A DNA stretch of 49,053 bases, taken from Gemmatimonadota bacterium. Its GTDB lineage: Bacteria; Gemmatimonadota; Gemmatimonadetes; Longimicrobiales; RSA9. This document shows positions 17,523 to 49,053 of this stretch, one piece after another (positions within the stretch are counted from its first letter, which is position 1; each line of letters begins with the position of its first letter). The notes beneath the pieces were generated by a model that made no database searches, was not told the DNA's origin, and saw only the letters and a list, made by a program, of their open reading frames with translations. The stretch covers positions 1 to 49,053 of the forward strand of contig SLCC01000035.1 in assembly GCA_007126035.1 (NCBI GenBank), read 5' to 3'. The translations under genes were made by a program, and so were the position numbers.

Positions 17523-19127
17523 TCATGGCTCCACCTGCCAGACCGTGTCCAGCACGGTGCCGTCCACCCACTTGATCACCGCCACCGGCCGGTCCGTGGT
17601 CCGCGGCGGCGAAGGCGGCCCGCCGGACATGGCCTCGACTTCCGCCTTGATGTCGGCTATGGGCCGGACGGGCAGAGTCGAGCCTTCGACCGCCCGGAGC
17701 AGGTCCTCTCGCCGGGGGTTGATGGCGATGCCGCGCTCGGTCACCACCACGTCCACCAGCTCGCCCGGGCCGGTGAGCGTTGTTACCCGCTCGACCAAAA
17801 CCGGGATCCGATCGCGGAATGACGGCACGGCCAAGATGGTGCAGCCGCTGAACAGGCAGTTCTGCCAGCCGCCGATGCCGTGGAGCAGCATGCCGTCGGA
17901 ATGGGTGACCACGTTGGCGTTGAAGTCCACGTCCACCTCGGTGGCGCCCAGGACCACCGCGTCCACCATGGAGGCGAAGTTGCCCTTGCCGTGGTAGTTG
18001 TAGGACGTGAGCGGGGTGCTGGCCACGTGGCGCGGATCGGAGCCGATGGACTGGACCCCCGCCAGGTCGAAGGTCTGGCCGTCCAGGATGTAGTCGGTGA
18101 GCCCCTCCTGGAGGAGCTCCACCAGGTACTGGGTCGAGCCGCCCCGTACGAACCGGGCCTTCACCCCGTCCTGCTTCATGAGCTCCTTCAGGTAGGCGAC
18201 GAAGGCCAGGGCGATCCCGCCCGCGCCCGCCTGGAAGCTGAACCCGTCACGCATGATGCCCGCCTCCTTGATGAAGCGGGCCACGTGCTCGGCTATGAGC
18301 AGCCGGTCAGGGCTCCTGGTGATCTGGGTGGTGCCCGACACGATCTTCGACGGGTCGCCCACCGAGTCCACCACCACCACCGAGTCCACGTGGTTGCCCT
18401 GGATCTGCCAGGGGATGCACGGGAACGGGACCAGGTTGTCCGTCACCACGATGACGTGGTCCGCGTACATGGAGTCCGCCAGGGCGAAGCCCAGGGACCC
18501 GCACGCCGAGGGGCCGTGGGACCCATCCGAGTTGCCGAACGGGTCGGCGCTGGGCGCCGCGATCACCGCGATGTCGATATGGACCTCGCCGTCCTGTACG
18601 GCCTGGAACCGGCCGCCGTGGGAGCGGAGCACGCCCAGGCCCGGCATACGGCCGCGGGAGGTGAAGTCACCCAGCGGGCCGTTCATGCTGCCTTCCATGT
18701 GGTGCACCACGCCCTGCTCCATGAGCTGGATCACCGGCTCGTGGACCGGGAAGGACGCGCTGGGGAACCAGCGTAGACCCTTCACGCCCATCTCCGCCGC
18801 GGCCTGGAGCACCATCAGGGCCACCTTGTCCCCGTTGCGGAAGTGGTGGTGGCTCGAGATGGTCATGCCATCCCGGAGACCCGCCTTCTCGAGCGCCGCC
18901 TTGATGTCCGGTACCCGCTTGTCCCCGTCCGCCGGGTAGTCCCGGGCCGATCGGATGGGCGGGCCGTGCCTCGCGCCCTCGGGGGCGTAGCCGCCCACTC
19001 CCTGGAAGGGTACCTGCTCCTGGCCGTTGATGACGGTTGGCACCCGCCGGCCCGCGGCATTATCCGCCAGCCCGTCCGCCGCCGGCCCGTCGAGCCAGGG
19101 CGCCCGGGGCATAGTGACCACGTTCAT
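17523..19127 (-). CDS. citF: Citrate lyase alpha subunit (citrate:acetyl-ACP transferase)
   Basis: CitF swaps citrate for the acetyl group on the acyl carrier protein during citrate cleavage to acetate and oxaloacetate. The protein (534 aa, usual about 510) follows the family along its length: LRDGMTISSHHHFRNGD, IAAPSADPFGNSDG, GSLGFALADS, DGFSFQAGAGGIALA, DVDFNANVVTHSDG and a C-terminal PVAVIKWVDGTVLDTVWQV. The start overlaps the citDE stop by four bases (ATGA), so subunit synthesis is coupled. No citC, citX or citG is present in the window to ligate or make the prosthetic group. A 2-methyl- or homocitrate substrate cannot be excluded from sequence alone. Confidence 0.9.
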   Translation of the reverse strand: MNVVTMPRAPWLDGPAADGLADNAAGRRVPTVINGQEQVPFQGVGGYAPEGARHGPPIRSARDYPADGDKRVPDIKAALEKAGLRDGMTISSHHHFRNGDKVALMVLQAAAEMGVKGLRWFPSASFPVHEPVIQLMEQGVVHHMEGSMNGPLGDFTSRGRMPGLGVLRSHGGRFQAVQDGEVHIDIAVIAAPSADPFGNSDGSHGPSACGSLGFALADSMYADHVIVVTDNLVPFPCIPWQIQGNHVDSVVVVDSVGDPSKIVSGTTQITRSPDRLLIAEHVARFIKEAGIMRDGFSFQAGAGGIALAFVAYLKELMKQDGVKARFVRGGSTQYLVELLQEGLTDYILDGQTFDLAGVQSIGSDPRHVASTPLTSYNYHGKGNFASMVDAVVLGATEVDVDFNANVVTHSDGMLLHGIGGWQNCLFSGCTILAVPSFRDRIPVLVERVTTLTGPGELVDVVVTERGIAINPRREDLLRAVEGSTLPVRPIADIKAEVEAMSGGPPSPPRTTDRPVAVIKWVDGTVLDTVWQVEP

Positions 19128-20359
19128 TCCTCACCTCCATCCAATAGCCCCAGCTCCCGCGCCCGCTCGACGAGGCGCCGGGCCCGGGTCACCACGGGCG
19201 GGTCGATCATCTTGCTGCCCAGACTCACCACGCTCAGACCCCGGGCCTCGGCCTCACGGAAGGCCTCCACGATACGGAGCGCCTTCTCGATCTCCTCCGT
19301 CGTGGGCGCGAACGCCTGGTGGATCACCCGGATCTGGCGAGGATGTACGCAGCCCATGCCGGCAAAGCCCATGGCCCTGGAAGCGTGGCCCCAGGCCAGC
19401 AGGCCTTCCTCGTCCTGGACGTCGCCATAGACCGAGTCGATGGCCTGGACGCCGGCGGCCCTGGCAGCGTTCACCAGCCGCTGCCGGGCCCAGAGCGTTT
19501 CCAGCCCCTCCCGGGTCTTCACCACGCCCAGATCAGTGGTGTAATCCTCGAGGCCGACGGTCAGGGCCACCACCGCAGGCGAAGCGGAAGCGATGGCGAA
19601 GGCGTTCTCCACACCCACCGCCGACTCCAGGATGGGCATGAGCCATATGCCCGGCTCGGCCTGGCCCAGGATCGCGGCGATCCGGTCCGCCACCTCCACC
19701 ACCTGATCGGGACGCTCCGCCTTCGGGATCAGGATCAGCTCCGGCCGCTCCGGCACCACCGCGTCCAGGTCCTCAAGGCCCAGGGGCAGCTGGTTGATCC
19801 GGACCATGCGCTCGGCGCCGCCGAAGTCCACCTGCCGAAGGGCGTTGCGGACCAGCAGCCGGGCCGCCGGCTTGGCGTCCGGGTGGACCGAGTCCTCCAG
19901 GTCCAGGATCACTCCGTCAGGGCGATGCAGCCCGGCGTTCAGCATGAACTTCGGCTCGTTGCCCGGCAGATAGAGCCGGGACCGGCGGAGCAGGTGGCGG
20001 GCCGTGGCCGGCGGCGCCGGCGCGGCGGGAGAAGGCGACGGCGCGCCCTCACCGGTGGCGGCCGGCGGCAGGCCCGCCGCCCGGACAGCCGCCTCGACCC
20101 GGGCTTCGATCACCCACGGCAGGGCGCCCGCGTCCTCCACCTCGACCCGGGCAGCCTCGACCCCCAGACCGCGGAGCGTGGACTCGACCGTCTCCCGGAT
20201 GCTGTCCCCGTACAGCGCCGCCACCCGGGACTCGAGCGACACCTCCAGTCCGGCTCCGCCCGCCTCCACCGCCACATAGAGGTCGGAGCGGACGTCCCCG
20301 CCGCGGCGCCCTGCCTCACCACGGCGGACTCCGGCGGCGGGGGCCGTCCCGGTGCTCAC
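19124..20359 (-). CDS. citDE: Citrate lyase gamma-beta fusion (CitD acyl carrier protein + CitE lyase)
   Basis: This 411-residue protein joins two subunits that are normally separate. Residues 14-95 match CitD: SDLYVAVEAGG, then YGDSIRETVESTLRGLGVE and EDAGALPWVIEARVEAAVRA. S25 in VRSDL is in the place of the Ser that carries the phosphoribosyl-dephospho-CoA arm. A Pro/Ala linker (residues 96-118) leads to CitE: SRLYLPGNEPKFMLNA, VILDLEDSV, ILIPKAERPDQV, VGLEDYTTDLG and GFAGMGCVHPRQI, giving a complete HpcH/HpaI-type barrel with its Mg-binding acidic residues. Both neighbours overlap by four bases. The fusion would fix a 1:1 stoichiometry and tether the swinging arm. Confidence 0.88.
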   Translation of the reverse strand: MSTGTAPAAGVRRGEAGRRGGDVRSDLYVAVEAGGAGLEVSLESRVAALYGDSIRETVESTLRGLGVEAARVEVEDAGALPWVIEARVEAAVRAAGLPPAATGEGAPSPSPAAPAPPATARHLLRRSRLYLPGNEPKFMLNAGLHRPDGVILDLEDSVHPDAKPAARLLVRNALRQVDFGGAERMVRINQLPLGLEDLDAVVPERPELILIPKAERPDQVVEVADRIAAILGQAEPGIWLMPILESAVGVENAFAIASASPAVVALTVGLEDYTTDLGVVKTREGLETLWARQRLVNAARAAGVQAIDSVYGDVQDEEGLLAWGHASRAMGFAGMGCVHPRQIRVIHQAFAPTTEEIEKALRIVEAFREAEARGLSVVSLGSKMIDPPVVTRARRLVERARELGLLDGGEE

Positions 20360-21573
20360 GACCCGTCGCCGCCTGCGGCCACGCCGCTGGCCAGCGCGGC
20401 CAGGATGGCGTCCACCATCTCGGTGGTGGTGGCAGCGCCCTGCTCGATAGACCTGGGACCGCCAGGTATGCGCATCATGTCATACGTGCGGACGTTGCCC
20501 TCCTTCACCACCGCGGCCACGGCGGCGCGAATCTGCTCGGCCTTGTCCGTCTCGCCCACATGATCCAGGAGCATGGCCCCGGTCAGGACCATGGCGATGG
20601 GGTTCACGATGGGCGGGTCCAGCTGGGCGTACTTGGGCGCGGAGCCGTGGGTCGGCTCGAAGACCGCCACCTCGTCTCCGATGTTGGCGGAGCAGGCGAA
20701 GCCCAGGCCACCGACCAGACCCGCGTACGCGTCGCTCACGATGTCGCCGAACATGTTGCCCGACACGATGGCCCCGTAGTCCTCGGGGTTCTTGGTCATC
20801 CACATCATCTGGGCATCGATGTTGGTCGACCAGAGCTCGATGTCCGGGAAGTCCTGCTGGACCTTGCGGGCCTCCTCCTCCATCATGCCAGACGTCTCGC
20901 GCAGCACGTTGGGCTTCTCGCACACCGTCACCGACTTGTAGCCATGGGCCACGGCGTACTCGAACGCGGCCCGCACGATCCGGTAGCACGCCCGGCGGGT
21001 GAAGACGCGGGTCGAGATGGCCATGTCGTGGGGCGGCGTGGCAGCGAAGAACTTGAACTTGGGATGCGTGTTCAGCGCGTCCCGCACCACCTTGGGCGGA
21101 TTCGTCCACTCGATGCCCGCATAAAGACCCTCGGTGTTCTGCCGGAAGACGGCCACGTCTACCTCCGGCTCCTCCACAGTGTCTCCGGGCCCGCGACGGA
21201 TGAAGTTGAGCGGGTTGCCCGGGAACGAGCGGCAGGGGCGGACGCACACGTCCAGGTTGAACCGCTGCCGCAACGCCACGATGGGACTGTAGTAGACATA
21301 GCCCTCGTCCCGCAGCTCGGGGCTCAGCTCGAGCGCAGCCTCGTTCTTCGGTTTGGAGGTGATGGCGCCGAACAGGGCCAGCTTGTGCTTATCGATCAGC
21401 TCGACCGTCCGCTCCGGCAGAGCGTTGCCCTCATGGATCCAGAACTCCCAGCCGATGTCCCCGTGGACGTACTCGGCATCGAAACCAACGGCATCCAGCA
21501 CCCGGATCGCCTCGGGAAGAACGACCTCGCCGATCCCGTCACCAGGCATCGCCACCACAGTGTACTTCGCCAT
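20356..21573 (-). CDS. NAD-type isocitrate/3-alkylmalate dehydrogenase
   Basis: This is a beta-decarboxylating dehydrogenase of the isocitrate/isopropylmalate family (405 aa). Motifs include PGDGIG, RQNTEGLYAGIE, a catalytic Lys in VCEKPNVLRE, NMFGDIVSDAYAGLVGGLG and the adenine loop FEPTHGSAPKYA. In E. coli isocitrate dehydrogenase the substrate loop reads SLNVALRQ; here it is SPIVALRQ, keeping Ser (S96) but replacing the carboxylate-binding Asn with Ile. Isocitrate is therefore likely but not certain; homoisocitrate is an alternative. GAGAGGAG precedes the ATG. It lies 21 bases after the dehydratase gene and overlaps citDE by four bases. Confidence 0.85.
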   Translation of the reverse strand: MAKYTVVAMPGDGIGEVVLPEAIRVLDAVGFDAEYVHGDIGWEFWIHEGNALPERTVELIDKHKLALFGAITSKPKNEAALELSPELRDEGYVYYSPIVALRQRFNLDVCVRPCRSFPGNPLNFIRRGPGDTVEEPEVDVAVFRQNTEGLYAGIEWTNPPKVVRDALNTHPKFKFFAATPPHDMAISTRVFTRRACYRIVRAAFEYAVAHGYKSVTVCEKPNVLRETSGMMEEEARKVQQDFPDIELWSTNIDAQMMWMTKNPEDYGAIVSGNMFGDIVSDAYAGLVGGLGFACSANIGDEVAVFEPTHGSAPKYAQLDPPIVNPIAMVLTGAMLLDHVGETDKAEQIRAAVAAVVKEGNVRTYDMMRIPGGPRSIEQGAATTTEMVDAILAALASGVAAGGDGS

Positions 21574-21594
21574 TTCACTCCTCTCGTGGATATG

Positions 21595-23583
21595 TCAGTC
21601 AGACTGCGCTATCACTTTGGTACCGCCCTGCTCCGCCCCGTTGCCCAGGCCGAGCCGCTCCTTCACCTGGGCCTCCGCACCGCCGGCCACTATCAGCGCC
21701 TGCGGCACCCGGCCCAGGGCCGGGAACGGATGTTCTTCGCCCCGCCAGCGGGCCACGCTGCGGGCGAAATCGAGCTCGACCTCGTCACCAGGTATGATCG
21801 TCGCCTCGCCCGCCGCCAGCTCCGAAGCCAACGCCGCCTCCACGCTACGGACAAGACCGGGGCACTCGATGCAGATCAACCCGTTGTTGAACGCGTTCCG
21901 CTTGTACGTCTGGGACAGGGTCTCGGCGATCAGGAGAGCGATCCCCTTGGCCTGGAGCGCCGTCGCCGCCTGCTCCCGGCTCGAGCCCGTGCCGAAGTTG
22001 CGCGTACCCACCAGCACGTCGCCGGCCACGGTGCGCTCCGCGAAGGACGGGTCGTAATTGGCCATCACCACCTCGGCCATCTCCGGAGCGCTGAGTTCAC
22101 GGTACGTGTAGTCCTTGCCGTAGATGCCGTCGGTGTTGAGGTTCTCCCGCGGCACGAAGACCAGCCGGCCCACCACCTGGTCCGGGAAGCCGGGCAGGAT
22201 GTCCACCGTCTCCGGGGTAGGCGACCCGTCAGCCAGACGCTCGAACGTGGTGGCAGGCTCACCGGCACCCACCTGGCCGTCCGTGATCCGTCCAGCCAGC
22301 GCTGACGCCGCCACCACCGCGGGACTGGCCAGGTAGACCTTCGCGTCAAGGGAGCCCATGCGGCCCTTGAAGTTCCGGTTCGTGGCCGAGATGCCCACCT
22401 CCCCCGGCTCCAGGAGGCCCTCACCCAGCCCGATACACGGCCCGCAGCCCGGCGGCAGCGGCGTGGCACCGGCGGCCAGCAGGTCGCCCCACACCCCAGC
22501 CTGCTCCGCCCGCTCCTGGATCTCGTGGCTGGCCGCGGCGATATAGAGCGACACGCCGTCGGCTATCCGCTTGCCACGCAGCTTGGCCGCCGCCACCGCC
22601 AGGTCCTCGAAGCGACCGTTCACGCACGACAACAGGTAGGCCTTATGGATCGGAATCCCTTCCGACTCCACCTCCGCCACCGGTTGACCCTTCTGCACCG
22701 TGTCAGGCCCCGCCAGGAACGGGGTCACCGTGGACAGGTCCAGCGTGAGCCGGGCCGCGTACTCGGCGCCGGCGTCAGGGCCTGGTGGGGACTCGGCGAA
22801 CCCCCAGATCTGGGCCTCGGTGATCCGGTGATGACCCGCCGCCTCGAGCCGGACCTTCCGCTCCTTCAGATAGGCCACCGTGTGCTCGTCCACCGGGAAC
22901 CAGCCCGTCAGGGCGCCCCACTCGGTGGTCATGTTGGCGATGGTCATACGGGCCGCCATGTCCAGGGAAGCGACACCGGGCCCGGCGAACTCCACCGCAG
23001 CGTTCAGGACCTGACCACCGCCGTAGAGGGCGCACAGCGTCAGGATCACATCCTTGCCGGCCACACCCGGCCGCAGCTCACCCTCGAGCACCACCTGGAC
23101 CGTGGGCGGGATCTGCCACCAGAACTCGCCCGTGGCCCATATCGCCGCCGCGTCCGTCCGGACCACTGGCGTGCCCAGAGCGCCCACCGCGCCATACGTG
23201 TTGGCGTGGGAGTCCGACGCCACCACCAGCCTGCCGGGCAGGGCGTAGCCCCGGTCCATGATGATCTGGTGACCGATACCGGTGCCCGCAGGATGGAAAT
23301 CCAGACCGTGCTCCCGGCAGAAGGCCCGGATGAGAGTGTACTTCTCCACGTTCTCCGGGGACTTGTTCTGGATGTCGTGGTCCAGGGCAATCACCGGCTG
23401 ACGGGGATCATGGATCCGGGCTACCCCGATGGAGCGGACCTTGGATATGACCGCCGACGTGTTGTCGTGCGTCATGATGTGACGGGGCCGCAGTGAGACC
23501 ATGTCCCCGGGCCGGAGCTCACGCGCCGGGCCCTCCACCATGTGCGCCCGAGCTATCTTCTCGACTATCGTCGCGCCCATCAT
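21595..23583 (-). CDS. Aconitase-superfamily dehydratase, homoaconitase-like single chain
   Basis: This [4Fe-4S] hydro-lyase (662 aa) interconverts a tricarboxylic acid and its 2-hydroxy isomer. LRPRHIMTHDNTSAV, VVASDSHANTYGAVGALGTP, RTDAAAIWATGEFWWQIPP and IANMTTEWGALTGWFPVDE resemble fungal homoaconitase (Lys4) more than classical AcnA/AcnB. The cluster cysteines are in LLSCVNGRFEDL and PPGCGPCIGLGEG. The C-terminal swivel domain is fused (GTRNFGTGSSREQAATAL). Substrate may be citrate, fitting the citrate lyase downstream, or homocitrate. Two adjacent ATGs exist; the second (23580) has the better spacing to GGAGG. It is the first gene of the overlapping block. Confidence 0.82.
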   Translation of the reverse strand: MMGATIVEKIARAHMVEGPARELRPGDMVSLRPRHIMTHDNTSAVISKVRSIGVARIHDPRQPVIALDHDIQNKSPENVEKYTLIRAFCREHGLDFHPAGTGIGHQIIMDRGYALPGRLVVASDSHANTYGAVGALGTPVVRTDAAAIWATGEFWWQIPPTVQVVLEGELRPGVAGKDVILTLCALYGGGQVLNAAVEFAGPGVASLDMAARMTIANMTTEWGALTGWFPVDEHTVAYLKERKVRLEAAGHHRITEAQIWGFAESPPGPDAGAEYAARLTLDLSTVTPFLAGPDTVQKGQPVAEVESEGIPIHKAYLLSCVNGRFEDLAVAAAKLRGKRIADGVSLYIAAASHEIQERAEQAGVWGDLLAAGATPLPPGCGPCIGLGEGLLEPGEVGISATNRNFKGRMGSLDAKVYLASPAVVAASALAGRITDGQVGAGEPATTFERLADGSPTPETVDILPGFPDQVVGRLVFVPRENLNTDGIYGKDYTYRELSAPEMAEVVMANYDPSFAERTVAGDVLVGTRNFGTGSSREQAATALQAKGIALLIAETLSQTYKRNAFNNGLICIECPGLVRSVEAALASELAAGEATIIPGDEVELDFARSVARWRGEEHPFPALGRVPQALIVAGGAEAQVKERLGLGNGAEQGGTKVIAQSD

Positions 23584-37469: not shown

Positions 37470-40400
37470 TCAGTGGATGATCACCCGGTCCGGGGCTCCC
37501 CGGCCGAAGGTCTCGGGTGCGTACATCTCCTCGGCTCTTGGCGGTGGTGCGATGAACGTGCCATGGCTCGTCGCCCGGGCCAGGTAGGTGTACTCGTGCA
37601 CCCCTGCACGGAGCAGGCTGGTGAAGGCCTCGGCCCGGTCGTCGCGAAGGTTCTGGTGGTCGAACCAGCCGACCCGCCAGGGCGGCGGCGACCAGGGCCC
37701 ACGCTCAACCTCGCCCGGCATGGTCCGGTACCCGACCGGCCGGTTGTCCGGCGGCGAGTCGTGGTGGAACCCCGTCCCCCGCAGCTCGGGGTTCAGGGGC
37801 TCGAGCCCGGCGGGGAGCGGGTCAACGAGCGCCACCTGGCGCCTGACCGACGGCGCGATCATGGAGATCCGGACCCGGACCCTGGCCCCGGCTCGGATGC
37901 GCCAGGCACCGTCGTCGTCTCGACGGACGTCGTCAGGGTCGTCCACCGCCTGGTAGCTCCGCTCCACGGTGAAGCCGCGGTCCAGGGGCGGCAGGTCGTG
38001 TCCGGCGGGCGCGTACCGGAGCCCGGCCCGGTAGTAGAGCCGGCCCGTGCCGTCCCGCTGGATCAGGACCCGGTCGGCCTGGTCCATGGCGGCCAGGTGG
38101 GCCAGCGGCACATCCAGGTGCCAGCGGTCGGCGGAGCGGCCGCGGAACTCCCGGGTGCCGGCGAAGCGGTCGCCGACCCAGAGGCGGGTGACGAAGTCTG
38201 GCTCGACCCGCTCGTATTCCTGGAAGTAGCGGCCCAGGGCCAGGAGTGCCCACGAGTTCTCCTGGGTCGTGCGCCAGCGGCCCCGGCTCCGGTGGTCCAG
38301 GAGCCCGCGGGCGAGCTTGGGCACCAGGTCACTCCCCGGGTCCGCCTGGATCAAAGCCTCCAGGGCCACGGCGTCGGAGCGGCGGTCCGAATGGAGCAGG
38401 ACGTGGGAACCGTCCTCGTAGGAGGTGGCCATGGTCGCGGCGCCCGCGGTCTCGGTCACCCGGTTCACGAGCTGGCGGCGCAGCTCGTCGGCCTGGGCCC
38501 GTGCGTGTGGGTCGCCTGCCAGGGTGTGGAGGAGCCAGCCGGCGGCGGCGACGCCGGCTTCCGCGGTGTAGCCGGCGGATCCAACCTCCCGTACCCGGCG
38601 TCGGGCTGCCGCCACGGCGGCAGGGTCGTCCATGCGGCCGCGGACGTAGAGGGCGTACGCCGCCAGGCCGTGGCGGTCCCGGACGGCGACGTCGCCAGCG
38701 ATCCGCCCGTCCAGGTCGCGCAGGTACTCGGCGGCACGGTCCATGGTGGCGCCGGAGACGGTGAAGCCGGCCTCCCTGGCCCGTTGGAGGGCGTGGGCGG
38801 CGTGGATGCTGACGAATGGGTGCGACGGGCCGTCGCCCCGCCACATGCTCCAGCCGCCGTCGGGCCGCTGGAGCCGGGCCAGCTCGGCCACGTCCCGCAC
38901 AGCGGCGGCGATGATCTCTTCGGGAGTCGGCAGCGCCTCGGCGGCGAACGCCGTCAGCGCGTCCCTGAGCGCGGCCACGGCCAGGAGCCGGGACGCGGCG
39001 GGCTCGGGCCCCTCGAAGGGGTAGCGGTGGAGGTAGAGGAGCGCGTCGCTGAGCGCGTTCAAAGCAGTGCTGGAGACGGTGACGCCAAGGCCGCCGAAGC
39101 CAGGCACCGCGTCGCCAGGGACCGAGAGCGGGAGCGTGGCCAGGTCCGTGTCCTGGAGCTCACCGTAGACGGCGAACGCCTCCGCCGTGGCGGGCTCGTA
39201 CACGGGTATCACCGCCGCGGTGGCATCGCTGCGATCACCCGCAACGGCCACAGCCTCAACTCTCGCCCTGCCGTTACGAACGGCCGCGGCCGGGACACGG
39301 AGCTCCACCCGGTCGCCGGCCGGGACCGTCACGCGACGTCCCTGCCCCTGGTCGAACCGGAGCCCGTCGGCCCGCACCGCCACGTCCACCTCCAGGGCCT
39401 TGTCGGCCAGGTTCTGGACCATCAGGCCCAGCTCCGCCAGGTCGCCGTGGTTCAAGAACCGCGGCAGGGCCAGCCGGACCATGAGGTCACGCCGCGCGGT
39501 CACCGTGGCCTCGCCCCGGCCGAACCGCGTGGCGCCGTCCACCGCCACCGCCACGACCCGGTACCGGGTCAGGGTACCCGGCATCGTGACCGGCACCGTG
39601 ACGCGGCCGTCGGGACCGGTGACCAGGGCAGGCTCGAACAGGGCCAGCGGCCGGAAGTCGTCCCGCACCGCCACGGGCGGGTCCGGCGGCGCCACGCCGC
39701 CACGTCCGGCCACCGCCTCCGCCGCTTCGGCGTCCATCGTTGTCGCCGCGATCGTGACGTCATCGTGCGCCACAGCCCCTCTCAACATCATGCCGGGCGC
39801 CGGCAGGCCCTCCACGCGGTTCTCATCAAACTTGAGCTCCGGATCGTCCCGGTCCAGCAAGACCAGCCGGCGCAGCGAGTGGTCCCGGACTCCGCTGCCG
39901 CGCTGTGTGTAGAAGGCGGCCAGGGGATCGGGCACGGAGTAGTCGCCCAGGGCCAGGATGGCGTCGTCCACCATCCAGAGCGCCACTTCCGCACCGGGGC
40001 GGGGCCGGCCGCGCTGGTCCCGGACCTCGACGGTGACGGACGTGCTGCCGCCCGGCTCGAGGGTGGTGTCGGCGGGCTCGACGGTGACGTCGAGGGTACG
40101 GGCATGGGGCGGGACGCGCAGCGCCACCTGGCCCGCGCGGTAATCGGTCCCGGCCCCGCCGCCGGCAGCCACCAGCTCCACGTGCAGGTCAGTGGCGGGG
40201 ATGTGGGCCTCGGACACGGGGATGAGCAGCTCGTGGGACGGCCCGTCCAGGCGGAACCGGCCCGTCTCCGCCACGCCGTCCCGACGCAGGGTCCAGAGCC
40301 CTTCCGCGGCGTCGAACGGCGACTGGACCAGGACCCGGGCAGTGTCACCGGGCTGGTACTCCTCCCGGTCCGCCACCAGCTCCAGCGGCTCGCCGCCCGG

Positions 40401-43400
40401 CCGGTCTACCACCGGACGGGACACGGCGCCCGCGACCCAGACCGGCAGCTCGGACCGGCTCGACCGGCCCGTGTGGTCGGTGACGTCAACGGTGAGGAGG
40501 TACGACCCCGGCTCGCCCAGGACGACGACGCAGCTCACCGGCTCCTCGCGGCTGGTCGTTTCGCAGATCGGGCCCGACACGCCGTCTTCACCCTGGGCAC
40601 CCTCATCTCCTGCATCCCGGGCCCGGTCGGCCTCCTGCTCCGGACCGGCAGCCCGGGCCAGGCCAGCCACCTGCGCCTGAACTCCCGGCAGCGGCCGGAT
40701 CCCGCCATCCCGCGGCGTCAGTCGGAGCTCCAGCGGTCGTCCGGCCACCGGCTCGCCGTCAAGGTCCACGGCCACCATGCTCACGACCAGGGAGTCACCG
40801 GCCTGGGCCCAGTTGCGGTCGGCCCTGATGCCGGCGTACACCGATCCGGGGTGGACCAGGACGTCCACGCCGCCGGAGCCGGCCTGCCGGTCCACGTCCT
40901 GGACCTGCGCGTCCAGGCGCAGCGACGCGGTGAACGGCGGGTCCGTCTCCAGCAGGGCGACCCGGACGCCGTGCGTCCCGTGGGCGTCCGTCAGGCCCGC
41001 CAGCTCCTGGACCGACGCCTGGCCCGGGCCGCGACCGAAGCCCCAGAACGGGGCCCGACCGAAACGCCACCGGTCCCAGCCGGGCGGCGAGTAGCTGGCG
41101 GACCGGCTCGTGACGCGCCAGTCGACCTCGGCGCCCGCCAACCCGCCGCCGCCGTAATACGCCGCCTCGACGGCCACGGCCACCGTCGCTCCCACCACGT
41201 AGGGCCCCGGGTCCGCCAGCACGCGGACCTCGTATTCCGGCCGGCGGAACTCGTGGACCAGGAACGTGTTGTGCCCGAACTGTCGTCGGGTGGCCGACGG
41301 GACTTCGAACCGGACCCGGCCCCGGCCCGAGTTCAGCTCCCCGGGCAGGTCCACCACGGTGCTGAACCCGCCCAGCGACCCGGGACGCACTTCGCCAGCA
41401 CCCAGCTCCTCGCCGCGGGGTCCGTGGGCGGTGAACCGGAGCCGGTCCGCGCCGGCGGCCAGCCCCAGGTCGCCGGCGGGGCCCGGCGCCGACTCCCGGA
41501 CCCACCCCTTCAGCTGGACCTGCTCGCCGGGCCGGTACAGGCCCCGATCGGTGAAGACCAGCCACCGGAGCGACGGCTCCGGGTCCGTCAACCGCCAGCT
41601 GGCCCTGCCCCAGCCCCACGGGTCCGCCGGGAGCAGTGCCGTATCGTTACCGTGGCGGGCCACCAGCAGATCATCGCCGGAATCCCGCAGCGGCAGCCGT
41701 CCCAGCCCCCGCGCGTCCGTCACCGCCTCCTGGCAGGCGGGCATCAGCGCGAGGCGGACCCCCGGGATGGCACGTCCGTCCGCCAGCGACGTGGCCCAGG
41801 CCTGCACCGCCTGGCCGTCCACCGCCGCGTCGAGCCCGATCCCCGTGGACTGGACCCAGGCCACCGCCTGACCCGACCCGGCACGCCTCACGTCCACCGA
41901 CGGTAGGCCGCGACCCGTCCACGACCGGGCACGGGGTCGAACGACCACCACCGCGTGGCCCAACCCGTCGACGAGGGCGGGGGCCAGGTCCACCCACGAT
42001 CTGCTCAGATCTTCCACCGGCCCGGCAGGCGCGATGGTGGTGTCCAGGACCAGCCTGCCCGGGGCCTTGAACGAGCCGGCCAGCGGCCCCCTGCGCTGCC
42101 GTTCCAGCTCACTGATGAAGTCGGCCCAGTCTTCCACCGCCACGGCGAAGACCCGGGCACGTAGCGCGTCGTGGCCGCTGGAGTGGACGGCGACCCGGGC
42201 CGGTCCCGCCGGATCCAGGACCACCATGGGCGAGCCGGCCAGGGCCAGCGTCGGCGGCATGCTGGCCGTCCGGAACTCGAGCCGGCGCTCCGAGCCCAGG
42301 ACCTGGCCGAAGACGTCCTGGATGTTCGGCTCGAGCACCAGGCGATAGGTGGTCAGGGCCGCGAACCGCCCGCGCACGTGGAGCCTGTCGCCGTGGAGGG
42401 CGACGTCCAGGTCCGGCACCTCCGGCTCGAGCCGGACCAGCTCGTCGGACCATGCGGCCCGATCGAGGTCGTTGTTGAACCGGACCCAGAACGCACCCCG
42501 CGGGGAGCAGCTGCTCGTGGACTGACCGGCGCAGCCGTGCTCAGCCACGGCCAGCGGTCCGTAGGTGCGGAACCGCAGCTCCTGGGTCACCGTGGTCGTC
42601 CGGCTCCCTTCCGCCGACGGGGCGCCCGGACCGATCACCACCCGCACGCCCGCCCCGCCCGGGAGCCGCCTCTCCGGGCGGAGGGCGAGCCACCGCCCGT
42701 CGTCCAGCATCTCCGCGAGCGCGCTCGCCACGGAGTCGCTCGCCACCTCGTCGGGCGTGGCCAGACGGAGGGGCCTCTCCCGCCCGTCGGCGGTGAGCCG
42801 GATGGCGGGCAGCACCGCCGCCGGCTCTACGGCCTGGTCGAAGGCGATGACGATGACCGGGTCCCGTGACGCTGCCGGACCGCTACCCTGCCCCGGGCCA
42901 CGATACGGCCGGCTCACCGGCAGCGGCCCGCGCGGCCAGCGGCTGGCGAAGCCGTCCTGGTGGGGGTAGCCGCCCGTGGCCGCGGGCGCAGGCGTGGCGA
43001 AGTCCGCGCGGAAGGGAGCGCTCAATGCGCCGCCCAGCTCCGAGCGCACGCTGGCCGGCACTTCCACCTCGTAGCTGGTGGCCATGGGGAAGCGCGGGTC
43101 CGGCTCGAAGCGGAGGGTCCGCGTGTCCAGCCAGGACCAGCGGCCAGGCGGCTCCGGCCGCAGACGGGCGGGCACGGGTCCGGCGGCGATCTCACCCAGC
43201 GCCGCCAGCGGGACCATGGGCTGGGAGAACGTGATGCTCAGGTGAGGCGCCAACCCCGTCTCACCGCGGGGCACCACCCGGAGCACCTCCAGCGGGCCGG
43301 CCACCGGCTCGTCGGGCGACGGCGGGAGCAGGCTGTCGGACGGCGGGAACGGTGCCAGGATCGTGGCACCGGGGCGTGGCGGCGGTGGCGACGCTGGCGG

Positions 43401-43805
43401 GAACGGCGAAACCACCGTGTCGTCCGCCGGGCCCGCCGCGGGCAGCCGCGCCAGGAGCCGGCGCGCCGCGTCGTCGGCGAGCAGGGTCATCGAACCCGGG
43501 GCCGTTCCCGGCCCGGGCCGTTGCCCCATCGGCTCCGCTCCTGGCTCCGCTCCCGGCTCCGCTCCCGGTTCCGTCCGCGCCAGGTCCTGCTCCAACCGGA
43601 AGATCAGGCCCCGCTCCACGGCGCCGGGCGGAGGAGCCACGGGCCGTGGCGGCGCCGGCAACGCGGGTACCAGGACCACCTCCTGGTCGCCGCCTCCGCC
43701 CGCTGCCTGCGCGGGGCGGGCCGGCAGGCAGGAGAGAGACGACGCGGTCATGGCCAGCACCGCCACGCCGAGCAGAAGCCGGCGGTTCCGCTCCACAGAG
43801 ATCAT
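37470..43805 (-). CDS. Giant alpha-2-macroglobulin-family protein lacking the thioester
   Basis: This exported protein of 2111 residues has bacterial alpha-2-macroglobulin architecture: a signal sequence ending SLSCLPARPAQA (lipoprotein or Sec type), Ig-like MG domains, the MG2 signature TDRGLYRPGEQVQLKGW near residue 750, the A2M region FRPLALFEPALVTGPDGRVT near 1375, an alpha-helical TED-like domain (ARLQRPDGGWSMW near 1635) and a C-terminal domain ending in RAEEMYAPETFGRG. The normal thioester YPYGCxEQ is YPFEGPEPAASR near residue 1594, so the reactive Cys and Gln are gone. It could still trap proteases by bait-region closure, or act as a scaffold. No PbpC partner is adjacent. ATG 43805 begins the signal peptide. 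Confidence 0.88.
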   Translation of the reverse strand: MISVERNRRLLLGVAVLAMTASSLSCLPARPAQAAGGGGDQEVVLVPALPAPPRPVAPPPGAVERGLIFRLEQDLARTEPGAEPGAEPGAEPMGQRPGPGTAPGSMTLLADDAARRLLARLPAAGPADDTVVSPFPPASPPPPRPGATILAPFPPSDSLLPPSPDEPVAGPLEVLRVVPRGETGLAPHLSITFSQPMVPLAALGEIAAGPVPARLRPEPPGRWSWLDTRTLRFEPDPRFPMATSYEVEVPASVRSELGGALSAPFRADFATPAPAATGGYPHQDGFASRWPRGPLPVSRPYRGPGQGSGPAASRDPVIVIAFDQAVEPAAVLPAIRLTADGRERPLRLATPDEVASDSVASALAEMLDDGRWLALRPERRLPGGAGVRVVIGPGAPSAEGSRTTTVTQELRFRTYGPLAVAEHGCAGQSTSSCSPRGAFWVRFNNDLDRAAWSDELVRLEPEVPDLDVALHGDRLHVRGRFAALTTYRLVLEPNIQDVFGQVLGSERRLEFRTASMPPTLALAGSPMVVLDPAGPARVAVHSSGHDALRARVFAVAVEDWADFISELERQRRGPLAGSFKAPGRLVLDTTIAPAGPVEDLSRSWVDLAPALVDGLGHAVVVVRPRARSWTGRGLPSVDVRRAGSGQAVAWVQSTGIGLDAAVDGQAVQAWATSLADGRAIPGVRLALMPACQEAVTDARGLGRLPLRDSGDDLLVARHGNDTALLPADPWGWGRASWRLTDPEPSLRWLVFTDRGLYRPGEQVQLKGWVRESAPGPAGDLGLAAGADRLRFTAHGPRGEELGAGEVRPGSLGGFSTVVDLPGELNSGRGRVRFEVPSATRRQFGHNTFLVHEFRRPEYEVRVLADPGPYVVGATVAVAVEAAYYGGGGLAGAEVDWRVTSRSASYSPPGWDRWRFGRAPFWGFGRGPGQASVQELAGLTDAHGTHGVRVALLETDPPFTASLRLDAQVQDVDRQAGSGGVDVLVHPGSVYAGIRADRNWAQAGDSLVVSMVAVDLDGEPVAGRPLELRLTPRDGGIRPLPGVQAQVAGLARAAGPEQEADRARDAGDEGAQGEDGVSGPICETTSREEPVSCVVVLGEPGSYLLTVDVTDHTGRSSRSELPVWVAGAVSRPVVDRPGGEPLELVADREEYQPGDTARVLVQSPFDAAEGLWTLRRDGVAETGRFRLDGPSHELLIPVSEAHIPATDLHVELVAAGGGAGTDYRAGQVALRVPPHARTLDVTVEPADTTLEPGGSTSVTVEVRDQRGRPRPGAEVALWMVDDAILALGDYSVPDPLAAFYTQRGSGVRDHSLRRLVLLDRDDPELKFDENRVEGLPAPGMMLRGAVAHDDVTIAATTMDAEAAEAVAGRGGVAPPDPPVAVRDDFRPLALFEPALVTGPDGRVTVPVTMPGTLTRYRVVAVAVDGATRFGRGEATVTARRDLMVRLALPRFLNHGDLAELGLMVQNLADKALEVDVAVRADGLRFDQGQGRRVTVPAGDRVELRVPAAAVRNGRARVEAVAVAGDRSDATAAVIPVYEPATAEAFAVYGELQDTDLATLPLSVPGDAVPGFGGLGVTVSSTALNALSDALLYLHRYPFEGPEPAASRLLAVAALRDALTAFAAEALPTPEEIIAAAVRDVAELARLQRPDGGWSMWRGDGPSHPFVSIHAAHALQRAREAGFTVSGATMDRAAEYLRDLDGRIAGDVAVRDRHGLAAYALYVRGRMDDPAAVAAARRRVREVGSAGYTAEAGVAAAGWLLHTLAGDPHARAQADELRRQLVNRVTETAGAATMATSYEDGSHVLLHSDRRSDAVALEALIQADPGSDLVPKLARGLLDHRSRGRWRTTQENSWALLALGRYFQEYERVEPDFVTRLWVGDRFAGTREFRGRSADRWHLDVPLAHLAAMDQADRVLIQRDGTGRLYYRAGLRYAPAGHDLPPLDRGFTVERSYQAVDDPDDVRRDDDGAWRIRAGARVRVRISMIAPSVRRQVALVDPLPAGLEPLNPELRGTGFHHDSPPDNRPVGYRTMPGEVERGPWSPPPWRVGWFDHQNLRDDRAEAFTSLLRAGVHEYTYLARATSHGTFIAPPPRAEEMYAPETFGRGAPDRVIIH

Positions 43806-43921
43806 GTCGCGCGTGTTCGGGTCAGGCGAGGCCGCGCGGGCTGACGCGGCAGCTGCACATCCTGGTATCCGGCCCAGCCCGTCCAGGTTCCCCTGCTCTA
43901 CTCCGCCGGCCTCCTCCATGG

Positions 43922-43990: not shown

Positions 43991-45355
43991 ATGTGGCGAT
44001 TCTCGCGAACCGCTTTCTCTGCCGGGCTGATCCTGCTCCTCCTTGCCGGCGCTCTCGAGGCGCAGGAGGCCAGGTTCGCCGGTGAGATACCCCACGAGAC
44101 GTACCTGCTGGACAACGGGCTCCGGGTGATCCTGGCCCCGGACCCCACGGCCACCGCCGTGGCGGTCAACATCTGGTACGACGTGGGCAGCCGCCACGAG
44201 CCGCCCGGCCGCTCCGGCTTCGGCCACCTGTTCGAGCACCTGATGTTCGAGGGCTCGGAGCGCGTGCCCCGGGGCACCTTCGACCAGCTCATCAACGAGG
44301 CCGGCGGCTCGGCCAACGCGTCGATCACCGAGGACCGGACCAACTACTTCGCCACGGTCCCGTCGAGCCAGTTGGCCCGCGTGCTCTGGCTCGAGGCTGA
44401 CCGGATGGAGGCGCTGCTGGTCACGGAAGAGAGCATGCGCCGGGAGATCGAGGTGGTGAAGGAGGAGCGGCGACTGCGGGTGGACAACGCGCCCTACGGC
44501 CCCGCCAGCCTCCAGGCCCGCTTCTACGCGCCGTACGATTCCACCAACTGTTTCGCCTACGCCCACTCCGTGATCGGCTCCATGGAGGACCTGGACGCGG
44601 CGCAACTCGTTGACGTGCAGGCGTTCTTCGATACCTACTACGTCCCGAACAACGCCACCCTCACACTGGTGGGCGCCTTCGACGCCGACGTGGCCCGGGA
44701 CCTGATCCACCAGTACTTCTCCGCCATCGCTTCGGCCCCGGAGCCGGCGGAGCCCCGGTGCGAGGACCCGTTCCGGCACCTGCCGGTGAACCTGGAGCTG
44801 GACGACGCTGCGGCCCGACTCCCCGGCGCCTTCATCTCCTACGGCAGCGTCGCGGTCGGTCACCCCGACAGCTACGCGCTGAACCTGCTGGGCGCCATCC
44901 TGGGAGCGGGGCAGACGTCCCGGCTCCACCGCCGGCTGGTGCGCGAGGAGCGGGCGGCACTGCAGGCCGGCGCCGCCTCCAACACCCGCCGCGGGCCCGG
45001 CCTCTTCGTGGTCAACACCATCGCCAACCAGGGCGTCACGGCGGAGCGGCTGATCGAGCTGGTCGACGAGGAGATCGACCGGATCAGGCGGGAAGGCGTG
45101 AGCCAGGACGAGCTCGAGCGGGCGAAGAACCGTGCCCGGGCCTCGACCATCATCGGCGGGCAGACCGTGATGGGCCGGGCCGAGGCGCTCCAGCGGGCGA
45201 ACCACTTCCTGGGTGACCCCGGCGCCTACCGCGCCGAGATGGAGAGAACCCAGGCCGTCACGGCGGACCAGATCCAGGCCGTGGCCCAGCGCTACCTGAC
45301 AGAGGCCAACCGGGCGGTGGTGATCGCCCGCCCGGCCACGGAGGAGACGCCATGA
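43991..45355 (+). CDS. M16-family zinc peptidase, active type, periplasmic
   Basis: This 454-residue M16 metallopeptidase has a signal peptide (cleavage near LEAQEA). The zinc site H79-L-F-E-H83 (GHLFEHLMFEGSE) is followed by NASITEDRTNYFATVPSS and the second Glu region REIEVVKEERRLRVDN. The C-terminal half contains the R/Y-loop-type segments GAGQTSRLHRRLVREERAAL. GGAGG lies eight bases before the ATG. It overlaps the next gene by four bases (ATGA), giving a coupled active/inactive pair like the one at 28860-31978. Confidence 0.9.
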   Translation: MWRFSRTAFSAGLILLLLAGALEAQEARFAGEIPHETYLLDNGLRVILAPDPTATAVAVNIWYDVGSRHEPPGRSGFGHLFEHLMFEGSERVPRGTFDQLINEAGGSANASITEDRTNYFATVPSSQLARVLWLEADRMEALLVTEESMRREIEVVKEERRLRVDNAPYGPASLQARFYAPYDSTNCFAYAHSVIGSMEDLDAAQLVDVQAFFDTYYVPNNATLTLVGAFDADVARDLIHQYFSAIASAPEPAEPRCEDPFRHLPVNLELDDAAARLPGAFISYGSVAVGHPDSYALNLLGAILGAGQTSRLHRRLVREERAALQAGAASNTRRGPGLFVVNTIANQGVTAERLIELVDEEIDRIRREGVSQDELERAKNRARASTIIGGQTVMGRAEALQRANHFLGDPGAYRAEMERTQAVTADQIQAVAQRYLTEANRAVVIARPATEETP

Positions 45356-48207
45356 TGCACCGCAACCTGAACGCCGTGCTCCCCGCCGCCGCCCTGGCGC
45401 TGGTGGTGGCCTGCGCGCCCACACCGCCGGTGGCGGCGCCCCAGCCCGTGGGCATCCCCGACCAGCTGCCCGGCCCGCTGCCAGAGCAGCCCATCGCGTT
45501 CCCCGAGTTCGCCGAGTTCACCCTGGACAACGGGCTCGAGGTGATCCACGTGCCCCACCACGTCCAGCCCATCGCCAACCTAACGCTCTACCTGCGCGTG
45601 GGCGGCGCCGACGACCCCGCCGAGCGGGCCGGCCAGGCCATGATCGCCGCGGACCTGCTCCGCCAGGGGACCACGACCCGGACAGCCGAGCAGATCTCCG
45701 AGGCCATCGAGGGCGTGGGCGGCTCCCTCTGGACCAACGCGGACGCCGACTTCCTCACCGTCTCCTCCACCGTGCTGGTGGACGACCTGCCCCTGGCCTT
45801 CGACCTGGTGGCGGACGTGACCCGCCGGCCCACCTTCCCCGCCGACGAGGTCGCCCTGGTCGTGCAACGGACGCTTTCCGGCCTGCGGGCGCAGCTCGGC
45901 CAGCCGGCGGAGATCGCCCGGCGCCGGTTCGTCCAGGAGGTCTACGGCGAGGGCCACCCGTACGGTACGAGCCCTACGCCCGCCAGTGTCCAGGCCATCA
46001 CCCGTGAGGCGCTGGTGGAGCTGCACCGCCGGTCGTTCCGTCCCGATGCCGCCGTTCTCGTCGTCGCCGGCGACGTGGACGCCGCCACCGCCAGGGCCAT
46101 GGCAGAGCAGCACTTCGGCGACTGGCAGCCTGGAGCACCCGCCCGGCCGGTACTGCCACGGCCCATGGAGCCGGGGCCCACCCGCATCGCCCTGGTCCAC
46201 CGGCCGGGCTCGGTGCAGGCCACCATCCGCGTCGGGCACCTGGGCATCCGCGCCGACGAGCCCGACTTCTTCCCGCTCCAGGTCATGAACCGCGTGCTGG
46301 GCGGCGGCTTCACCTCCCGCCTCATGCAGCGGCTCCGCGACGAACTGGGCTGGACCTACGGCGCCGGCTCCGCCTTCACCCTGCCCCGGGACGTGGGGGT
46401 CTTCTCCGCCACCACCGAGGTCCGGAACGCCGTCGCCGACAGCGCCGTAGCCGAGATCCTCTCCCAGCTCAGGGACCTGAGGGACCAGCCCATGGACCCG
46501 GACGAGATGGCCTCCGCCGTCAGCTACCTGGTGGGCAGCTTCCCCCTGACCATCGAGACCGCCGGCCAGATCGCCGGCCAGATCGCCAGGGCCCGGCTCA
46601 TCGGGAGGCCCATCGAGCACATCACCGGGTACCGGGACCGGATCGCCCAGGTGACGCCCCAGGACGTGACCACGGCCGCCCGCCGGCACGTGGACCCGGA
46701 CCGTGCCGTGATCGTGGTGGTGGGCGAGGCGCCCGAGCTGCTGCCACGCCTGCAGGCGATCGCACCCGTGACCCTCTACGACGTGAAAGGCGCGCCGCTG
46801 GACGACCTGGCACCCGAGCCCGCGTCGGCCCAGGCGGAGCCGACCGGCCCCCGAATCGACGCCCCTCGGATCGACGCGATCTTCGCCGAATGGGCCAACC
46901 CGGAATCCCCAGGCTGCGGCCTGTCGGTGGTCGAGGCCGGTCGGCCCGTCTACTCCCGGGGCTACGGCAGCGCCAACCTGGACTACCAGGCCCCCATAAC
47001 GTCCCAGACCGTCTTCTACCTGGCCTCCGTCTCCAAGCAGTTCACCGCCGCCGCCGTGGCCCTGGCGGCGCTACAGGGGTACCTCTCCCTGGACGACGAC
47101 ATCCGAAAATGGTTCCCCGAGCTGCCCGACTACGGAGCGACCATCACGGTGAGCGACCTGGTGCACCACACCAGCGGGCTCAGGGACTACCTGACCCTCA
47201 TGTCCCTGGCAGGCATGTCGTACGGCGACAGCTGGCTCGACGATGAGATCGTAGAGCTCATCGCCCGCCAGCAGGGCCTCAACTTCGAGCCCGGCACCGA
47301 GTACCTCTACAGCAACAGCGGCTACTTCCTCATGTCCGAGCTCGTCGGCCGCGCCACAGGACTGTCCCTACGCGAGTACACGACCCGGGAGATGTTCGAG
47401 CCCCTGGGCATGCACGACACCTGGTTCCACGACGACGCCACCCAGATCGTCAGGAACCGGGCCGTGGCATACGGGCGCGACGGCCACGGATTCCGCATCA
47501 CCCACCTCTTCAACTTCGACAAGGTGGGCTCCGGAGGCCTGTACTCCACACTCGATGACCTGGCCCGGTGGGATGCCAACTTCTACGACGGCCGGATCGG
47601 CGGACCGGACTTCCTCCGCACCATGCACACCCGCGGTGTACTCGCCTCAGGCGACACCCTCCGCTACGCCTTCGGACTCAACATAGGCGACTACAGGGAC
47701 CGGCCGACCGTGGAGCATGGTGGCTCCATGATGGGCTTTCGCACCTCCATGCTCCGGTTCCCCGAGGACCGCACCACCGTCATCGTGCTCTGCAACCTCG
47801 GCAACATCAACCCCGGCCAGCTGGCCCAGCAAGTGGCCGACGTGGTGCTGGCCGACCGGTTGGGACCCGCACCCGAGCCAAGAGGCCGGCCCGCCGCCGC
47901 GCCAGCCGCCGACGAGCCTGACACCGCGCCAAAGCCAGGCTCACCACTGGAAGCCTACGCGGGCTCGTACCACAGCCCCGAGCTGGCGGTGTCGTACCAG
48001 ATCCAGGCAGATGAGAACGGCCTCCTCCTGACACGACCACGCACCGACCACGTGGAGCTGGTCTCCCTCGGCGACGACACCTTCCGGGTCCGCCGCGGCG
48101 GATGGAGCATCCGGTTCATACGGGGGGACGACGAGGCCATCACCAGCTTCGTCCTCGACGCCGGTCGGGTGCGGGGCATCCGGTTCGATCGCGCGGTAGA
48201 TGACTGA
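45352..48207 (+). CDS. Fusion lipoprotein: inactive M16 peptidase + serine beta-lactamase-like hydrolase
   Basis: This 951-residue lipoprotein (lipobox VVACAP) has two enzymes in one chain. Residues 45-485 are an M16 domain without HxxEH (region GGADDPAERAGQAMIAADLL) but with the partner-type GGGFTSRLMQRLRDELGWTY. After a Pro/Ala linker, residues 505-830 form a class C beta-lactamase/DD-peptidase fold: nucleophile S559-V-S-K562, Y653-S-N and the H789-G-G third motif. A C-terminal beta domain (YAGSYHSPELAVSYQI) resembles DUF3471-type appendages. The translational overlap with the active M16 upstream implies a complex in which peptidase and Ser-hydrolase activities are brought together at the membrane. 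The beta-lactamase part could be an esterase, D-aminopeptidase or PBP-like enzyme. Confidence 0.9.
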   Translation: MMHRNLNAVLPAAALALVVACAPTPPVAAPQPVGIPDQLPGPLPEQPIAFPEFAEFTLDNGLEVIHVPHHVQPIANLTLYLRVGGADDPAERAGQAMIAADLLRQGTTTRTAEQISEAIEGVGGSLWTNADADFLTVSSTVLVDDLPLAFDLVADVTRRPTFPADEVALVVQRTLSGLRAQLGQPAEIARRRFVQEVYGEGHPYGTSPTPASVQAITREALVELHRRSFRPDAAVLVVAGDVDAATARAMAEQHFGDWQPGAPARPVLPRPMEPGPTRIALVHRPGSVQATIRVGHLGIRADEPDFFPLQVMNRVLGGGFTSRLMQRLRDELGWTYGAGSAFTLPRDVGVFSATTEVRNAVADSAVAEILSQLRDLRDQPMDPDEMASAVSYLVGSFPLTIETAGQIAGQIARARLIGRPIEHITGYRDRIAQVTPQDVTTAARRHVDPDRAVIVVVGEAPELLPRLQAIAPVTLYDVKGAPLDDLAPEPASAQAEPTGPRIDAPRIDAIFAEWANPESPGCGLSVVEAGRPVYSRGYGSANLDYQAPITSQTVFYLASVSKQFTAAAVALAALQGYLSLDDDIRKWFPELPDYGATITVSDLVHHTSGLRDYLTLMSLAGMSYGDSWLDDEIVELIARQQGLNFEPGTEYLYSNSGYFLMSELVGRATGLSLREYTTREMFEPLGMHDTWFHDDATQIVRNRAVAYGRDGHGFRITHLFNFDKVGSGGLYSTLDDLARWDANFYDGRIGGPDFLRTMHTRGVLASGDTLRYAFGLNIGDYRDRPTVEHGGSMMGFRTSMLRFPEDRTTVIVLCNLGNINPGQLAQQVADVVLADRLGPAPEPRGRPAAAPAADEPDTAPKPGSPLEAYAGSYHSPELAVSYQIQADENGLLLTRPRTDHVELVSLGDDTFRVRRGGWSIRFIRGDDEAITSFVLDAGRVRGIRFDRAVDD

Positions 48208-48481
48208 ACCGATTCGAACCACATGGCCGTAGTCCGGAGGATGACCTGAGCGACCTGGCCTCGGGGACAGGCAGCTATGGTCGCTACAGGTCGTTCTCCG
48301 AGCGAAAAGGGCGAAACCCGCTCGAAATCCCGTGACGGACGCGTTACCTGCTCCCCAGCACCCGGACGGCTGTGTTACCGGGAAGTGTTGGTCACCAGAA
48401 ACCGCCTGTCGCTCCGCCGTAGACAGATCCGCCGGGCAAATCATCAACACCCCTCACGGTCACGCCGAGTCTCACCAGCAG
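48208..48481. other. Intergenic stretch
   Basis: There are 274 bases without a supported gene. No strong hairpin-plus-T terminator is visible after the fusion gene. Small open frames lack ribosome-binding sites. Confidence 0.4.
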
Positions 48482-49053
48482 TCAGGGGAAGGTGCAGGCG
48501 ATGAGGAGGTTGTTGGCCTCGGTGTCGCTGGTGCCGGCCCTGTCGCACATGGTCAGGAAGCGGTGCCAGACCAGGTAATTGGGCAGGTAGCGAGTGGCCA
48601 CGCCCCGGAACGGATAGAGCCACCGTCGGAACAGCGAGCCATAAAGTGCCGCGCCGTGGTCCATCGACTCTGCGACCGTCAGCGGTCGATAGCACAGATC
48701 AGCTGCTCGCGCCCACTCCGACACCGCCTGAAGCCCCGGGTTCGACCGCAATGTGATCGTTCCCGACCCGCCAGCAGCCTCCCGGCCCGGCACCGCCCCC
48801 AGCTCCCGGCTGGAGCCCAGAACCGGATTCCGACCTCCCTCCCGACTCGATTCCCGGCTGGCTCTCCGTCCATGCTCGAGGCCCGGCTCGTCGACGGGAT
48901 CTTGATCCGACGCCTCACACACTGCTGGCGGGCGAGGACGAAGGCGAGGACCGAGCCTCTGATCCATCTCCTGCACACCAGGCCGCTGTCGCCCCACATA
49001 CTCCGACCACGGCGTGCCCCAGGGCCGGTCCCGGGCCAGCAGAACCCACGCCC
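48482..49053 (-). pseudogene. Partial transposase-like reading frame (ISXO2/IS1595-like C-terminus)
   Basis: The C-terminal segment SLFRRWLYPFRGVATRYLPN followed by YLVWHRFLTM resembles the end of ISXO2/IS1595-type DDE transposases (typically FxGVxTKYLxNYLxWF). Upstream residues are Arg/Glu/Gly-rich and do not show a clear DDE core, and the frame stays open to the window edge. It is either a decayed transposase or a diverged partial gene continuing outside the window. Confidence 0.45.

Follow-up and report, generated by a model that had tools for sequence, protein, structure and literature searches.

The physiological substrates of bacterial M16 peptidases are poorly defined, and in M16B enzymes the active site is completed by an R/Y pair of the partner subunit (PMC12731061). 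Among the described systems closest to the gene pair reported here is the M16B heterodimer SPH2681/SPH2682 of Sphingomonas sp. A1 (PDB 3amj), which likewise combines an active subunit containing HxxEH with an inactive R/Y subunit. Its inactive chain, 3amj_B, has 424 residues and comprises the M16 region alone, without the S12 or DUF3471 tail found in the fused protein described below. On the serine hydrolase side, the most relevant enzymes are the D-aminopeptidase DAP of Ochrobactrum anthropi (PDB 1ei5) and Pab87, a D-specific S12 peptidase whose gene lies close to a D-aminoacylase gene and whose family, CubicO, is defined by the motifs YAEAF/L, FFYLN and ERY (PMC2651629). Like the protein studied here, Pab87 (PDB 2qmi) has an S12 domain with SxxK, YxN and HxG followed by a further C-terminal domain, but it has no M16 domain. 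A natural fusion of M16 to a hydrolase of another mechanism offers a clue to what one M16 pair digests.

The window, i.e., the whole stretch of DNA analyzed (49,053 nucleotides from a Gemmatimonadota bacterium), is the entire contig C169; the draft genome to which it belongs measures 3.88 Mb in 218 contigs (estimated completeness 98%, estimated contamination 4.24%). Two genes on its forward strand, overlapping by 4 bp (ATGA), are considered here. The upstream gene, M16a (43991-45355, +), was assigned by Pfam, PDB match and motif as the active subunit of an M16B zinc peptidase with a Sec-type signal peptide; its HLFEH motif occupies residues 79-83 (nucleotides 44225-44239). The downstream gene (45352-48207, +) is one unbroken frame of 951 amino acids, in which Pfam recognizes Peptidase_M16 (E-value 3.7e-11, residues 69-170), Peptidase_M16_C (5.6e-37, 216-391), Beta-lactamase (3e-62, 515-818) and DUF3471 (3.5e-7, 857-944). 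Its product begins with a lipoprotein signal peptide (45352-45414, +) containing the lipobox LVVAC, and lipoboxes are likewise present in the two nearest relatives of the fused protein (L038 and L039); by this motif it is predicted to be a bacterial lipoprotein, with Cys21 expected to be lipidated. The M16 pseudo-peptidase domain, M16i (residues ~49-484; 45496-46803, +), is followed by a Pro/Ala-rich junction linker of ~20 residues (DLAPEPASAQAEPTGPRID; 46804-46860, +), the point at which relatives either continue into DUF3108 or end. The S12 domain (46861-47805, +), delimited by alignment, carries SVSK at 559-562, YSN at 653-655 and HGG at 789-791, and the DUF3471 domain (47920-48183, +) aligns to the end with stand-alone homologues. 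The sequence-only reading had described a single lipoprotein with a non-catalytic M16 domain and an intact S12 enzyme, encoded directly after an overlapping gene for an active M16 peptidase, and our analysis agrees with it on each of these points. Single-sequence AlphaFold2 prediction gave an unusable model (pLDDT 35), and sequence searches found no credible PDB match for the DUF3471 and DUF3108 tails.

Further examination of the M16 pair revealed complementary active-site motifs. In M16i, the HxxEH motif has been lost, MIAAD standing at the position of the HLFEH of its partner, and the R/Y pair is kept (R329/Y336). Of the M16i homologues collected from the class, 51 with the fused protein counted in, none has HxxEH and all 51 have R/Y. 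The best PDB matches follow the same division of roles: M16a matches the active subunit 3amj_C (4.9e-56), and M16i the inactive subunit 3amj_B (1.4e-57). In addition, the M16a and M16i genes lie side by side in nearly every relative examined. Because one protein carries HxxEH and the other R/Y, the sequences strongly imply that M16a and M16i form an ordinary M16B heterodimer. A second overlapping pair of M16 genes is located on the same contig (28860-31954, -); one of its genes encodes HFLEH, and a simple pattern search found no clear R/Y signature in the other.

What sets the fused protein apart is its C-terminal tail. DUF3108 (PF11306) forms the tail in 37 of the 51 homologues, 13 stop near the junction, and S12-DUF3471 occurs once, in the fused protein. 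The DUF3108 tails are ~220 residues long; Pfam recognizes the domain in all four that were tested, and the remaining ones were assigned by similarity. The sequence-only reading had overlooked both DUF3471 and the fact that DUF3108 is the usual tail of M16i relatives. The 37 DUF3108-tailed proteins share the gene pair and the M16i domain with the fused protein, mostly at 42-58% identity (58% for G051). In the M16i tree, the fused protein falls into a group of 26 (support 100/99) that contains 23 proteins with DUF3108 tails and two with short ones, one of which, L046, runs up to the edge of its contig and is perhaps truncated. Since the M16i domain of the fused protein sits within this DUF3108-tailed clade, the simplest history suggested by the sequences is that DUF3108 was lost or replaced. 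No M16i-DUF3108 protein was found anywhere in this genome, either with the Pfam model, the more appropriate test, or with a hand-made consensus of the DUF3108 tails as query; the single DUF3108 protein of the genome is a stand-alone one. As for DUF3108, a domain of unknown function, an S12 hydrolase may be able to take over its part in the M16 pair, or the pair may manage without it. The locus looks like a known pair, the M16B heterodimer, with one C-terminal domain swapped for another enzyme, rather than a new type of system.

We then searched for the same architecture elsewhere. In 154 genomes from the order, 394 from the class and 395 from the phylum (overlapping samples), as well as in 72,556 plasmids, no second M16-S12 fusion was detected, part of the search being run at a strict threshold of 1e-140 that remote fusions may have escaped. 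A scan of further genome contigs returned just two distant S12 matches from Polaribacter. Our literature search for M16-S12 fusions and M16-DUF3108 proteins also found nothing relevant.

The S12 domain scores 211 bits against PF00144 (cut-off 27) and, with SVSK, YSN and HGG intact and conserved with its homologues, belongs to this family; serine catalysis is predicted. As regards its substrate, matches were obtained to D-aminopeptidase, AmpH, PBP4B and carboxylesterase entries, all curated models scoring below their cut-offs. The best NCBIfam model is the D-aminopeptidase model PRK13128, to which DAP of O. anthropi belongs (7.5e-46; 156.7 bits, under the cut-off of 443). Pab87 is among the best PDB matches, yet none of the three CubicO signature motifs is present in the fused protein. 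In a near paralogue from the same genome (L077; G000:C87:4388-7465), the S12 domain is 47% identical and likewise stands C-terminal to another enzyme, but this N-terminal partner is an Amidohydro_3 D-aminoacylase (PDB D-aminoacylase match, 2.5e-80) instead of M16. Such D-aminoacylase-S12 fusions occur in four of the 154 genomes of the order (G000:C87, G009:C60, G166:C18 and G223:C121). Moreover, G250, G042, G040, G060, G058, G056 and G204, and elsewhere in the class G099 and G305, have a D-aminoacylase and an S12 enzyme as separate, neighbouring genes, a context resembling that of Pab87. These fusions and neighbours are in themselves a promising pointer to a D-peptide degradation module. Given this link of sister S12 enzymes with D-aminoacylases, by fusion or by gene neighbourhood, the S12 domain of the fused protein may act on D-peptides as well. 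However, it lies outside the D-aminoacylase-linked subclade, and no D-aminoacylase gene was found beside its nearest stand-alone homologues (G010 and others), so D-peptide specificity has about even odds by this analogy. Around the stand-alone S12 enzymes most similar to this domain, the neighbouring genes are varied and uninformative.

Taken together, we give a probability of about 0.5 to a genuine, rare and lineage-specific exchange of tails, by which an S12 hydrolase became tethered to an envelope M16B peptidase. In this scheme, secreted, active M16a and R/Y-bearing M16i, the latter lipid-anchored in the envelope, would form a clamshell M16B zinc peptidase that encloses and cleaves short peptides. 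The DUF3108 tail would have been replaced by a complete S12-DUF3471 unit, which joined after the S12 enzyme had lost its own signal peptide. Held at the same membrane site, the S12 domain could trim products, or parallel substrates, that are beyond the reach of the zinc peptidase; these would most likely be peptides containing D-amino acids, derived from the cell wall or from environmental material. That the S12 and M16 active sites share substrates is speculative.

Several features of the locus could also be explained by an assembly or binning chimera, in which an M16 gene was joined by the assembler to an unrelated S12 gene: the fusion has been seen once, the gene ends 846 bases from the contig end, S12 paralogues number about a dozen in this genome, and the G+C of the M16 half, 0.73, gives way to 0.67 in the S12 half. 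However, third-position G+C passes from 0.95 to 0.90 with no sharp step, other genes of the genome ranging from 0.86 to 0.94. The join is in frame and respects both domain borders, as the M16 part extends in full to the last conserved motif (LYDVKGAPL), near where short homologues end, and the S12 part opens at the position at which stand-alone homologues have their mature start, with their signal peptide alone missing. No long exact match or repeat was found at the junction, the S12 paralogues of this genome having ~67-71% DNA identity in long stretches. A true repeat does occur past the stop codon (48457-48604), close to the end of this contig; C210 and the end of C139 contain copies that are 97-98% identical to it. 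A mis-join would therefore be expected there rather than at the junction. The sequence-only reading had regarded absence of the architecture elsewhere, combined with a join artefact, as speaking against it; the absence is true of the samples searched, and signs of an artefact were sought and not found. The fusion thus looks real, single so far and unusual, and a chimera is unlikely.

If the fusion is real, what the S12 domain does there can be read in more than one way. The sequence-only reading had offered D-peptide, ester or lactam chemistry, and of these the context of the sister enzymes favours D-peptides. Beta-lactam resistance, by a class C beta-lactamase tethered to a peptidase, draws on a match to the class C model NF033085 with an E-value of 6e-21, but the score is 74.6 bits against a cut-off of 415, HGG replaces KTG (or KSG), and the top model is that of D-aminopeptidase; we regard lactam chemistry as unsupported and this explanation as very improbable. 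A more serious candidate, though still a tentative one, is a real fusion whose S12 domain works independently (esterase or peptidoglycan DD-peptidase activity being examples) and takes no more from the lipoprotein than its export and anchoring. It accords with the breadth of the family, as reflected in the range of entries matched, and the variable tails of M16i (DUF3108, none or S12) are consistent with a permissive C-terminus; the association of sister enzymes with D-aminoacylases argues instead for the use of peptides or amino acids. Beyond the tail swap itself, it is conceivable, if rather doubtful, that the C-terminus of the R/Y subunit serves this lineage as an exchange site for accessory modules (DUF3108, none or S12-DUF3471), and that here a zinc endopeptidase and a D-peptide-type serine hydrolase form one envelope machine acting on the same peptides.

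As for the origin of the gene pair, contamination was considered as a source of the contig and ruled out, since PntB encoded on it is 79% identical to that of G009, a member of the genome's own family. The M16 pair has a different affinity: M16a is 62-63% and M16i 58% identical to the proteins of G051, from another family of the order, versus ~45% to those of own-family members. With its closest matches in families other than the genome's own, the pair was either acquired horizontally or retained as an old paralogue.

Besides the M16 genes, the contig contains other loci of possible interest. The divergent neighbour of the M16 pair (37470-43919, -) encodes a bacterial alpha-2-macroglobulin of 2149 amino acids, as identified by Pfam. 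Alpha-2-macroglobulin is a protease trap. For the nearest relative, G051, a blastp search of its 10-kb contig detected none. Farther away, a row of genes at 17523-23541 (-) encodes citrate lyase alpha (CitF), a protein with an acyl-carrier domain and citrate lyase beta (CitD-CitE like), isocitrate dehydrogenase and aconitase, possibly serving citrate cleavage or a reverse TCA step.
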